Assembly (NCBI RefSeq): GCF_000620845.1
Contig: NZ_KK211189.1
Coordinates: 1,379,662 to 1,443,661, forward strand
DNA length: 64,000 nucleotides
Source of the DNA: Exiguobacterium marinum DSM 16307
Lineage (GTDB): Bacteria > Bacillota > Bacilli > Exiguobacteriales > Exiguobacteriaceae
Reading direction: 5' to 3'
The position numbers and the translations under genes were made by a program. The notes beneath the pieces are model-generated. The model was given only the letters and a program-made list of their open reading frames with translations, was not told the origin of the DNA and made no database searches. Of this stretch, positions 42,421-60,174 are shown piece after piece (position 1 is the first letter of the stretch; each line of letters begins with the position of its first letter).

Positions 42421-43029
42421 ATGTTGAAAATTGGATTAACGGGTGGGATTGCAACCGGAAAGTCCACAGTGTCTCGACTGTTTCGAGAGCGAGGGATTCC
42501 GATTATCGATGCTGATTTGATTGCGAGAAAGGTCATTGAGCCTGAGGGAAAGGCAATCGAAGGTGTAAAGGCGGCATTCCCGAAATGTTTTGATGGTGAT
42601 CTATTGAATCGCCCTGCATTAGGACGTGAAATCTTTCATGATGAAACGAAGCGTCAGCAATTAAACCAACTAATGCATCCTGCGATTCGTGAAGAGATGA
42701 AAGAACAGATGCGAACACACGAGACAGCCGGTGAACCGGTCGTCATTTTTGACATTCCCCTTTTATTCGAAGGAACAATGCTTGACCTCGTCGACTATTC
42801 TGTTGTCGTCTATTGTCGCGAAGAAATTCAATTGATGCGTCTCATGGAACGGAATGGGTTGACAAAAGAAGAGGCGCTCGCACGCATCCATTCTCAAATT
42901 CCGATTGAAGATAAAAAGCATCAGGCTGATTATCTTGTGAATAACAACGGGGCATTGGGGGAGTTACCTTCCCAAATTGACCGCTTAGTCGAACAATTTA
43001 AAGCTATACAAAAAAAGGCGAATGATTGA
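42421..43029 (+). CDS. coaE: Dephospho-CoA kinase
   Basis: A 202-residue P-loop kinase for the last step of CoA synthesis. It has Walker A GLTGGIATGKST (5-16), the DADLIAR substrate segment and FDIPLLFE. The ATG at 42421 follows AAGGGGTGGG and fits the family N-terminus MLKIGLTGG; the longer frame overlaps mutM. The message runs into a large nested hairpin element with no classic T-run. Confidence 0.95.
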   Translation: MLKIGLTGGIATGKSTVSRLFRERGIPIIDADLIARKVIEPEGKAIEGVKAAFPKCFDGDLLNRPALGREIFHDETKRQQLNQLMHPAIREEMKEQMRTHETAGEPVVIFDIPLLFEGTMLDLVDYSVVVYCREEIQLMRLMERNGLTKEEALARIHSQIPIEDKKHQADYLVNNNGALGELPSQIDRLVEQFKAIQKKAND

Positions 43030-43030
43030 A

Positions 43031-43153
43031 GGCACTGAAAAATCCTAAATGATTCTAAACAGAGGAGCGTCGTCCCAATCAGGGATGACGCTCCTCTGTA
43101 TTCCTTGCTTTTTCTCTGTTCCTGTAAGGCAAGAGCAGAGGTTTTTCAGTGCC
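43031..43153. repeat. Nested inverted-repeat element
   Basis: An outer 12-base perfect pair (GGCACTGAAAAA at 43031-43042 and TTTTTCAGTGCC at 43142-43153) encloses an 18-base-pair hairpin at 43059-43099 (arm begins ACAGAGGAGCGTC). It also encloses a possible second fold with CTTGC/GCAAG and CTCTG/CAGAG. The whole forms a three-way-junction-like unit of 123 bases between coaE and the convergent protease gene. It may be a shared terminator, a structured RNA or a miniature repeat element. Confidence 0.6.
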
Positions 43154-43173
43154 ATCGAATGATCGCCTTCTTT

Positions 43174-43656
43174 TTAATTCAAAGGGTCGGATTCAGGCGA
43201 TCCTTTTTTCCATGTATCATAAATCGCTCGGCCGTCACTTGGGTGACCACTTGAATAATAAATTGGATAGAGAGAGAAAAAGATATAGTAGAACGAGAAA
43301 TAGGCGAATTGATACGTATAAAGAGTAGGCTCGATTTCTTGTTGAAGAATAAATCCATTTAAAATGAGGATGCTCGCCAAGTTAAAAATTGCGCCCCCAC
43401 CGTAAACGAGAGAGCGAGTAACTTTATTGCTCCACTTCAAATCTGAAAACTGACACCATGCATCATAAAAGTAAACACGATTCACTTGTAGATGCCCTAT
43501 TTTGAACAATTTTTTTCCGGTCCCGATTTGCATATCGAGAGTGCCTCCGAATAATCTTGCGAAGAAATAATGTCCTAACTCGTGAATCAACGTCACAATC
43601 GGTAAAATGATGAAGAACGAAATGAAAAATTTATCGATATCTCCCCAATCAAACAT
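43174..43656 (-). CDS. Small M50-like membrane metalloprotease homologue
   Basis: A 160-residue membrane protein. A first helix (about 11-32) contains HELGH, the zinc motif of site-2 proteases. Two further hydrophobic stretches follow (about 85-105 and 115-137). Near the C-terminus HPSDGRAIYD is a candidate for the aspartate-containing second motif (normally NPxxxxDG). There is no PDZ domain. It resembles short zinc metalloproteases of unknown role; YpdC- or SpoIVFB-like functions are not supported. The ATG at 43656 has AAAGGAGG seven bases upstream. Confidence 0.78.
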   Translation of the reverse strand: MFDWGDIDKFFISFFIILPIVTLIHELGHYFFARLFGGTLDMQIGTGKKLFKIGHLQVNRVYFYDAWCQFSDLKWSNKVTRSLVYGGGAIFNLASILILNGFILQQEIEPTLYTYQFAYFSFYYIFFSLYPIYYSSGHPSDGRAIYDTWKKGSPESDPLN

Positions 43657-43752
43657 CACGACGCCTCCTTTCTCTTTTGCTTTACGAGAAGAAATTTCCC
43701 TCATTTTCAAAAAATAAACAAAGAAAAGTGAAAGAAATGTGACGATTCATAG

Positions 43753-57716: not shown

Positions 57717-60092
57717 ATGTTACTTTCAAAAAAATGGTTGAATCAATATATTGATGTATCCGATTTAAGCGGAGAAGCGCTCGGTGACTTGATCACGAAG
57801 AACGGGATTGAAGTCGAAAGTGTGACGAATCGCGGAGAGGGACTTTCTGGTATCGTCGTCGGTCGTGTCCTTTCATGTGAGAAACATCCAGAAGCAGATA
57901 AATTAAATGTGACGAAAGTAGACATCGGGGAATGTGACCCTGTTCAAATCGTCTGCGGTGCACCGAACGTACGCGAAGAGCAACATGTGATCGTGGCCAA
58001 AATTGGCGCGCGCTTACCAGGACTTAAAATAAAAAAAGCCAAACTTCGTGGAGTTGAATCACAAGGGATGATTTGTTCACTCGAGGAGCTTGGATTCGAG
58101 AAGAAACAAATTCGGGAAGACGAGCAGGACGGGATCCACACATTCCGTGAATCTGTACAAGTCGGTGCAGATGTACTCGATTTACTAGACTTGAACGATG
58201 AGGTCATCGAACTCGGTTTGACTCCGAACCGTTCAGATTGCTTGAGCCTGTATGGAATCATTCATGAGGTTGCGGCCATCTTGGAACGTCCATACACGTT
58301 GCCGACAGCAGATGTCACATCGTCATCACCATCTGATGTGTCCATCGAACTCGCTACACCGAACTGTCCGTACTATGCAGCGCGTGAAGTAAAAGGGGTA
58401 ACAATTTCAGAATCACCACAATGGCTAAAAAACATCTTGATTGCAGAAGGTGTCCGTCCAATCAACAACATTGTCGATGTGACGAACTATGTGATGCTTG
58501 AAATCGGACAGCCACTTCACGCATTCGATGCGAAAAAACTCGGCAACTCGATTGTGGTCCGTCAAGCTGAAAATGGAGAAGAGATAATCACACTTGACGA
58601 CGTGACACGCACGCTTGATTCATCAATGATGGTCATCACGGACGGGCAAGCCCCGGTCGCAATCGCGGGCGTCATGGGTGGTGCCAACACAGAAGTGGAT
58701 GCCAGAACGACAGATATCGTCATAGAGTCAGCATACTTTGATCCGGCATCCGTTCGTAAGACAAGCCGTACGCTCGGTCTTCGTTCAGATTCAAGTGCTC
58801 GCTTCGAAAAAGGGATAGACCCAGAACGTGTCATGCTCGCGCTTGACCGCGCTGCGCAATTGATTGTGGAACTCAGTGGAGGGACCGTTCAAGATGCGGT
58901 ACGTTCGGGTGAAGCAGAATCACGTGCCCGCCAAATCGAAGTGTCGATTGACTATATCAATAAGCGCTTAGGAATGTCACTCGATCGTCAGACGATTGTT
59001 CAAATCCTGGAGCGTCTCGGTCTCACGACAGAAGGGGATGACGTGCTGACGGTTCATATTCCTTCACGTCGTCCGGACTTAGAACTTCCGGCTGACATTA
59101 CAGAAGAAGTGGCGCGTCTATACGGATATGATAGTCTCCCGTCGACGTTACCTGCCTCTCAATCGAAAGGTTACTTGCCAGCAATCAACGGATTGCGCAG
59201 ACAGACACGTCGCTTGTTGCAAGGTGTCGGCTTATCACAAGCCATCACTTACTCGTTAACGAGTGAGGCACATGCGACACGCTTCGGAGGAGAAGCCAGT
59301 CAGCTTGTTCGTCTGGCGATGCCGATGAGTGAAGAGCGCTCTGTCCTTCGTACGTCGCTCGTTCCAGGGTTGTTGGAGACGGCACGTTATAACACGGCGC
59401 GTCAACAATCGAACGTCGCACTGTACGAGACGGGACGCGTCTACACGGAGCATGGCGATACGTTACCGCGTGAAAAAGAAAGAGTGGCTGGCGTTGTCAC
59501 AGGTCTTTGGATGGACCATCGTTCGCAAGGAACACGGGTCCCGGTTGACTATTTCGTCGCAAAAGGGATTGTCGATACGTTAGTCCAAACGCTTCGCCTT
59601 GATGTCACGTATGAGGCCGTAGCGATGCCCGATATGCACCCAGGCCGTACGGCGAACATCTTGATGAACGGAGAGGTCATCGGATATGTTGGACAAGTAC
59701 ATCCAGGAACTTCGAAAGACGTCTACGGTATGAAAGAAGTGTATGTATTCGAACTCGACCTGTTAGCACTTCGCGGGGACGAAACGCTTCTTTATCAAGA
59801 CGTACCACGGTATCCATCGATTTCACGAGACTTGGCACTCGTCTTACCACGTGCGATTCCGGCTGGGACAGTGGAACAAACGATCCGCCAAGCGGCTGGG
59901 CCACTCTTGATTGACCTCGTCTTGTTTGACGTTTATACAGGTGAGAATGTTGGAGAGGATGAGAAGTCGATTGCCTTCTCACTCAAGTTCCAAGACCCGT
60001 CAAGAACGTTACAAGACGAAGAAGTAACGGCAACATATGAAACGATCGTTGAGGCAGTACGTGCTGAGCACGGGGCTGAACTACGAGCATAA
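57717..60092 (+). CDS. pheT: Phenylalanyl-tRNA synthetase beta subunit
   Basis: A 791-residue beta subunit. An N-terminal tRNA-binding OB domain covers about 40-150 (EKHPEADKLNVTKVDIG). The B3/B4 editing domain includes INNIVDVTNYVMLEIGQPLHAFD. B5, the catalytic-like core and a C-terminal FDX-ACB anticodon domain (about 695-790, with YPSISRDLALVL) follow. AAGGAGGAAG precedes the ATG. It ends at a long bidirectional terminator. Confidence 0.96.
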   Translation: MLLSKKWLNQYIDVSDLSGEALGDLITKNGIEVESVTNRGEGLSGIVVGRVLSCEKHPEADKLNVTKVDIGECDPVQIVCGAPNVREEQHVIVAKIGARLPGLKIKKAKLRGVESQGMICSLEELGFEKKQIREDEQDGIHTFRESVQVGADVLDLLDLNDEVIELGLTPNRSDCLSLYGIIHEVAAILERPYTLPTADVTSSSPSDVSIELATPNCPYYAAREVKGVTISESPQWLKNILIAEGVRPINNIVDVTNYVMLEIGQPLHAFDAKKLGNSIVVRQAENGEEIITLDDVTRTLDSSMMVITDGQAPVAIAGVMGGANTEVDARTTDIVIESAYFDPASVRKTSRTLGLRSDSSARFEKGIDPERVMLALDRAAQLIVELSGGTVQDAVRSGEAESRARQIEVSIDYINKRLGMSLDRQTIVQILERLGLTTEGDDVLTVHIPSRRPDLELPADITEEVARLYGYDSLPSTLPASQSKGYLPAINGLRRQTRRLLQGVGLSQAITYSLTSEAHATRFGGEASQLVRLAMPMSEERSVLRTSLVPGLLETARYNTARQQSNVALYETGRVYTEHGDTLPREKERVAGVVTGLWMDHRSQGTRVPVDYFVAKGIVDTLVQTLRLDVTYEAVAMPDMHPGRTANILMNGEVIGYVGQVHPGTSKDVYGMKEVYVFELDLLALRGDETLLYQDVPRYPSISRDLALVLPRAIPAGTVEQTIRQAAGPLLIDLVLFDVYTGENVGEDEKSIAFSLKFQDPSRTLQDEEVTATYETIVEAVRAEHGAELRA

Positions 60093-60136
60093 AAAATAAG
60101 GAGCGTTGTCCACATGTGACAACGCTCCTTATTTTA
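60093..60136. terminator. pheT terminator
   Basis: A stem of about 17 bases (arm AATAAGGAGCGTTGTC) with a short loop is followed by TTTTATT. A-rich sequence on the other side lets it act for the convergent hydrolase gene too. Confidence 0.9.
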
Positions 60137-60174
60137 TTGGATTTCGAGTGCGAGGTTACCGAACTTCGTCCAGA

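Follow-up and report, generated by a model that had tools for sequence, protein, structure and literature searches.

The window, a 64,000-nucleotide stretch of the Exiguobacterium marinum DSM 16307 genome, contains two convergent genes, coaE and a small M50-type peptidase gene, which are separated by a compact set of nested inverted repeats. The stop codon of coaE (TGA, 43027–43029) lies at the left junction of the element formed by these repeats. We assign the following features to the locus, with the ATG start of coaE picked by eye:

42421–43029, plus strand: coaE, dephospho-CoA kinase (Pfam CoaE, 3.5e-56, and TIGR00152, both on 42427–43026)
43010–43021, plus strand: left half of the original coaE terminator (A-run and stem arm), from the sequence and its relatives
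43020–43027: left target-site duplication GAATGATT (other parse, exact CGAATGAT at 43019–43026)
43028–43156, plus strand: very probable IS1182-family deletion derivative of 129 bp, from the homology of both ends, the flanking direct repeat and the unsplit site in relatives
43031–43042, plus strand: terminal inverted repeat of the left end, GGCACTGAAAAA (shared by relatives, usually as GAGGGCACTGAAAAA)
43031–43108, plus strand: IS-left-end stretch (82% identical to a full copy across 78 aligned columns)
43059–43099, plus strand: subterminal hairpin of 18 pairs from the IS left end, which in full copies precedes the transposase gene
43110–43153, minus strand: IS-right-end stretch (44 bases with 80% identity to the G006 right end; the final 22 are 95% identical to the G005 copy)
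43142–43153, minus strand: terminal inverted repeat of the right end, GGCACTGAAAAA in complement (95% identity with the full IS right end over the rightmost 22 bp)
43157–43164: right target-site duplication GAATGATC (other parse, exact CGAATGAT at 43156–43163)
43163–43175, plus strand: right half of the original coaE terminator (stem arm and T-run), overlapping the stop of the convergent M50 gene
43174–43710, minus strand: small M50-type peptidase gene, convergent to coaE (Pfam Peptidase_M50, 1.8e-07)

The length of 129 bp counts the terminal triplets GAA and ATC, and the distance from one 12-bp repeat to the other is 123 bp. No transposase gene was found in the 129-bp element, which contains no ORF of at least 50 amino acids.

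The inverted-repeat layout that an earlier note had described from the letters of the sequence is correct in each of its parts. The outer pair, GGCACTGAAAAA against TTTTTCAGTGCC, is exact over 12 bp, and the inner hairpin (43059–43076 with 43082–43099) has 18-nt arms in which 17 of the 18 pairs (94%) are strict and the remaining one is G-U. The interleaved pentamers are likewise present, as CTTGC (43104–43108), CTCTG (43114–43118), GCAAG (43129–43133) and CAGAG (43136–43140), and the main stem in the window runs straight into GTATTCC and not into a T-run; 12 of the 19 other rows of the alignment have GTTTTC in that place. Moreover, the structure is more than chance would produce: the fold of 43005–43215 reaches −94 kcal/mol compared with a shuffle mean of −50.3 (z = −10.9), and none of 200 shuffles folded as well. 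Absent from the earlier description were the split coaE terminator that surrounds the element and the 8-base direct repeat CGAATGAT just outside the outer pair. This direct repeat is the decisive feature of the locus. Parsed symmetrically, the duplication is GAATGAT(T/C), 8 bp long with one mismatch; the exact 8-bp parse, CGAATGAT, requires unequal element ends of 4 and 2 bases. The flanks outside the direct repeat, AAAAAAAGGCGA on the left and TCGCCTTCTTTTT on the right, together form a terminator.

The undisturbed form of this terminator can be seen across the genus. coaE is present in all 19 genomes of the genus that were searched, and in 14 of them the stem of the coaE terminator is unsplit, with the stop codon in or beside the loop. 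In 13 of the 19, an arm-pattern script located the right arm CGCCTTCTTT at a distance of 3–6 bases, counted from the first stop-codon base of coaE; all 13 have a plain terminator of the type AAGAAGGCGA-TGA-TCGCCTTCTTTTT; the fourteenth, G009, has kept the stem GGCG/CGCC and has a degraded tail in which the T-run is missing. The stop-to-arm distance in the window genome is 137 bases, and the unsplit terminator predicted for this species is AAAAAAAGGCGAATGATCGCCTTCTTTTT. At coaE, none of the other 18 genus genomes has a match to the element. On sequence comparison, the coaE terminator of the four other genomes is interrupted or rearranged, with different sequences. The right arm follows the coaE stop at +64 in G003 (L094), where the interrupter is a short hairpin element with the ends TGAACTG...CAGTTCA, at +1156 in G001 (L088), which may be a chance match, and at +1468 in G011 (L099), where an insert of about 1.5 kb lies at coaE; in G013 (L092) it was not found 3′ of coaE. 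With the window counted, the coaE terminator has thus undergone interruption or rearrangement more than once in the genus, by different sequences. The end of the coaE product also differs: 42997–43029 encodes a C terminus of QKKAND in the window genome, whereas in the 18 relatives it is KEGE or KEGD (16 genomes), KEGV or KEGES (one genome each). Judged by eye, a shift of one base within the A-rich run that precedes the element apparently gave rise to the QKKAND end.

Further copies of the element occur in the genus. The 123 bases match 12 of the 19 genomes, including the window's own, at E ≤ 0.001, the stronger matches spanning about query bases 1–78, and a separate search with the IS right end gave matches in 10 of the 19 at E ≤ 0.1. 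Among the copies are nine that are full length, with 1,824–1,827 bp from 12-bp repeat to 12-bp repeat and the ends GAGGGCACTGAAAAA; seven are in G005 and two in G011. One of these full copies (L081) contains a 488-amino-acid ORF that scores 339.3 bits against the NCBIfam model NF033551 (transpos_IS1182; cut-off 270) over residues 13–482 and carries the Pfam domains DDE_Tnp_1, DDE_Tnp_1_6 and DUF772. The transposases of the other eight align to it over 487–488 residues without stops. That the transposase lies inside the repeats is shown by the ORF for L081 and by position for all nine. With a family transposase and flanking terminal inverted repeats both in place, the parent element is, as judged from sequence, a member of the IS1182 family.

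Both ends of the window element correspond to this parent. Positions 43031–43108 align to positions 1–77 of a 1,827-bp G005 copy (82%) and 43132–43153 to its positions 1806–1827 (95%), and the bases in between, at about 43110–43131, have a weak likeness to known right ends. Five other internal-deletion copies were found, of 341 bp in G018, 353 and 758 bp in G004, 509 bp in G005 and 1,549 bp in G015; their sizes and breakpoints all differ, which suggests that they arose independently. The window element is shorter than any other of the 16 copies that have both ends. Its inner 18-pair hairpin lies, in the full copy, between the left end and the transposase gene, and the same hairpin recurs at IS ends in unrelated sites. 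Covariation gives this stem modest support: 4 of the 18 pairs have changed on both sides, compared with a shuffle mean of 1.6, and 12 of 500 shuffles reach as many, whereas the covariation score is equalled in 7 of 500 and the number of further pair types in 61 of 500, all with the relatedness of the sequences not removed. Thus further copies and two-sided changes, whose joint absence would have spoken against the earlier note, were both found, and its interpretation as a whole is partly supported.

An RNA model built from 20 such copies matched 18 of the 19 genus genomes at E ≤ 0.01 and 30 places in 11 of the 19 at E ≤ 1e-9; weaker matches were not counted as copies. Several candidates were set aside. 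The match of the IS left-end model to 60081–60155 of the window, minus strand (E = 0.008), is a plain terminator, AAGGAGCGTTGTC...GACAACGCTCCTTATTTTTT; L003 and L040 have a similar hairpin and no recognised terminal repeat; and an exact 12-mer at G000:C2:1962299 is a chance occurrence, with no partner within 401 bases and no similar flank by eye. The phage collection held no match to the element, and among plasmids one Exiguobacterium record matched, with 80.8% identity over 30% of a 241-base query.

Taken together, these data make us highly confident that the region is a non-autonomous, internally deleted (MITE-like) copy of an IS1182-family element inserted into the centre of the coaE terminator. 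Both ends are homologous to full IS copies, the element is flanked by a duplication, the site is unsplit in relatives, and the group prefers the centres of hairpins, as set out below. With its interior missing and no transposase of its own, it is by its sequence a non-autonomous derivative. The transposase would have been supplied in trans, or from the parent copy before the deletion. Insertion would have been into the centre of a bidirectional terminator serving coaE and the M50-peptidase gene, by cuts lying 8 bp apart on the two strands and placed symmetrically around the axis of the hairpin. Such symmetrical staggered cuts would leave the loop duplicated and both stem arms kept on either side, so that the nested repeats would be the terminal repeats of the IS, its left-end hairpin and the split arms of the host terminator, all on one axis. 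coaE has kept a stop codon, since the sequence as far as the loop is restored by the duplication, and termination would probably continue after the insertion because the stems of the element bring the old arms together. The left-end hairpin itself may, as a guess, block outside transcription from entering the transposase gene.

Other readings of the locus account for part of this evidence. The earlier note had raised a structured RNA, and a cis-acting RNA of coaE or the peptidase gene, such as an attenuator, a riboswitch-like element or a small RNA, would fit the very stable fold (z = −10.9) and the two-sided changes in 4 of the 18 inner-stem pairs. However, the region is located 3′ of the coaE stop, in the space between two convergent genes; it has no counterpart at coaE in the other 18 genus genomes, 14 of which have the unsplit terminator stem instead; and its hairpin is found at IS ends in unrelated sites. 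No Rfam family reached its gathering score in 42900–43300, where a permissive scan gave four sub-threshold matches, led by frnS (23.3 bits, cut-off 60) and MIR9486 (22 bits, cut-off 100). Nor is the suggested pseudoknot conserved: GCAAG is missing from the last 75 bases in all 15 relatives aligned, and chance is therefore the simplest reading of the interleaved pentamers. We consider such an RNA extremely improbable. That the locus is only a double terminator, formed in place when host sequence was duplicated locally and with no transposition involved, is barely credible, even though the site is a terminator between convergent genes to which hairpins have been added, and TTTTT follows the right-hand hairpin, albeit as part of the terminal repeat. 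Against it stand the exact terminal repeat, the target duplication, the unsplit site in relatives and, above all, the homology of both ends to mobile copies elsewhere, which already refutes the idea in its pure form. The earlier suggestion of an unusual double terminator is nonetheless partly apt, because the element brings hairpins into a host terminator, and it may still act as one.

Closest among the options raised earlier was membership of a miniature repeat family, inasmuch as copies do exist in the genus; they do not, however, form an independent repeat family, and are ends that belong to an IS1182-family insertion sequence and to its deletion derivatives. In its stronger form, this option would make the element part of a recently active MITE family in its own right, mobilized in trans by a resident transposase. 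The short length, the exact 12-bp terminal repeats and the deletion derivatives in four other genomes (G004, G005, G015 and G018) would suit that proposal, which we nevertheless regard as very unlikely. No second copy was found in the window genome, where, besides the reverse strand of the hairpin, only a 42-base resemblance to the hairpin was seen, and no transposase of the matching group was detected there at E ≤ 1e-60; the four IS1182-type copies of the genome whose ends were read have a different end, GAGGCTGGGACATAAC. Given the lack of a matching transposase in the genome, the window element is probably immobile at present. A single copy here and other sizes, with seemingly independent breakpoints, elsewhere fit a single deletion derivative better than a MITE family. 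MITEs in general are short, non-autonomous elements with terminal inverted repeats, a target duplication and a capacity to form hairpins. The window element shares these general features; it differs in that it is a single copy and seems to derive, by simple internal deletion, from an IS that congeners still carry whole. Among bacterial MITEs, the available part of a review names SPRITE, RUP and BOX (PMC10969869).

The IS1182-family deletion derivative is thus a transposon scar, whose layout is unusual but well explained; in itself it is ordinary, and the target rule of its parent group is the more useful part of the analysis and the part that deserves attention. We scored the 16 genus elements with both ends, the window included, counting three terminal bases (mostly GAG) as element and leaving out five stretches with one end found (L143–L147). 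A direct repeat outside the element is exact and 8–9 bases long in 14 of the 16, and has one mismatch in the window (8 bases) and in L136 (10 bases). For the hairpin test, the flanks were joined with one copy of the repeat, and a stem-loop with its axis near the middle of the repeat and a score of at least 17 was required. Such a centred hairpin was present in 13 of the 16 elements with an axis shift of up to ±1.5 nt, and in 12 at ±1 nt, compared with about 0.8% of window positions that reach 17 under slightly stricter (±1 nt) settings. An A-run leads into many of the genus targets and a T-run follows them, a layout typical of intrinsic terminators. Three elements do not lie in a clear hairpin: L129, an ordinary full-length copy whose duplication is exact, and L136 and L142, both of them rearranged or composite.

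The same pattern extends beyond the genus. In a class-level search at E ≤ 1e-80, 26 of 398 genomes, three from this genus, had relatives of the transposase; a scan of the genome collection for the transposase gave three loci, all in Exiguobacterium. Outside the genus we examined 25 loci (L163, L168 and L175–L197) of the 35 matches listed, a list in which no genome had more than three scored. An end pair was located in 23 of the 25, L168 and L187 being left out for want of one, and these ends resemble either GAGG(C/G)CACTGAAAAA or GAGAGCCCTGCAAAA. An exact duplication of 6–9 bases flanks 19 of these 23 copies, the other four having no exact duplication, and a centred hairpin scoring at least 17 was found for 18 of the 19 and for 19 of the 23 overall; by comparison, among 52,246 control positions flanking the class loci, 1.3% reach that score. 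The target hairpins of class and genus differ in sequence and have no obvious sequence in common, which fits recognition of an extruded hairpin.

A mechanism that would produce this pattern can be outlined. The target may be recognized as an extruded cruciform or hairpin; the DDE transposase would then join the element ends to the two strands of the palindromic target at points symmetrical about its axis and 6–9 bases apart, and gap repair would duplicate the loop. Whether a widespread IS1182 subgroup with GAGGSCACTGAAAAA/GAGAGCCCTGCAAAA-like ends does recognize terminator hairpins or cruciforms, cut the loop symmetrically, duplicate 6–9 bp and keep the arms, and whether such loop-splitting is a mode distinct from the stem-loop replacement of IS1272, form one joint reading that we judge to be evenly balanced between true and false. 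If it is true, splitting the loop can spare an upstream stop codon and lengthen the stem, which would make terminators a low-cost landing place. That most readable copies lie in the loop of a terminator-like hairpin makes a structure-guided DDE transposase directly testable, by asking whether the extruded hairpin is needed, and strongly nested inverted repeats at gene ends can be IS scars and not regulatory RNAs.

Related behaviour is on record in the IS1182 family. The available sections of two papers (PMC5678879, PMC4923244) describe the staphylococcal family members IS1272, TnSha1 and TnSha2 as targeting hairpins with no primary-sequence specificity, five of the seven TnSha1 sites A–G being confirmed transcription terminators; they also describe IS1272 as deleting or replacing the stem-loop, with no target duplication. 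By sequence, the present group resembles these elements in that a hairpin rather than a sequence appears to be the target (13 of 16 in the genus, 19 of 23 in the class), but it keeps the arms and mostly has an exact 6–9-bp duplication centred on the loop. The window element did not replace a stem-loop in the IS1272 manner: both arms and the duplication are present. One branch of the model figure in PMC5678879 depicts insertion into the loop with duplication of the loop alone, and the present group fits that branch as drawn and not the replacement branch; loop-splitting would then be a second outcome beside the replacement published for IS1272. Duplication as such is not new in the family, to judge from the accessible parts of two sources: PMC3281130 lists a 4-bp duplication for ISPse1, an IS1182 member from Paracoccus, and PMC12056078 describes IS1182-related transposases that act with or without target duplication and recognize sequence or structure. 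Our limited literature search, in the portions of text it covered, returned no report of an observed loop duplication by IS1182 members, and we claim no priority. In the accessible portion of a large-scale survey, IS1182 is among ten families over-represented where both neighbouring genes point at the IS (PMC9208149), an excess that fits terminators as targets.

The parent of the window element scores above the family cut-off (NF033551) with DDE and DUF772 domains, and the window element differs from the family in having no transposase. It also differs from the IS1182-type copies resident in the same genome, which end in a different terminal repeat and, by eye, show no duplication. The window genome has six DUF772 matches, of which four are these copies and two are shorter. 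The four copies (L075–L078, G000:C2 near 111431, 229690, 517656 and 1694784) have 1,839 bp between GAGGCTGGGACATAAC ends, and some of their flanks end A-rich and start T-rich, as if the stem of a terminator had been replaced. In L075 (688–2589), the IS1182 transposase frame continues into a PspC domain, giving an open frame of 633 amino acids.
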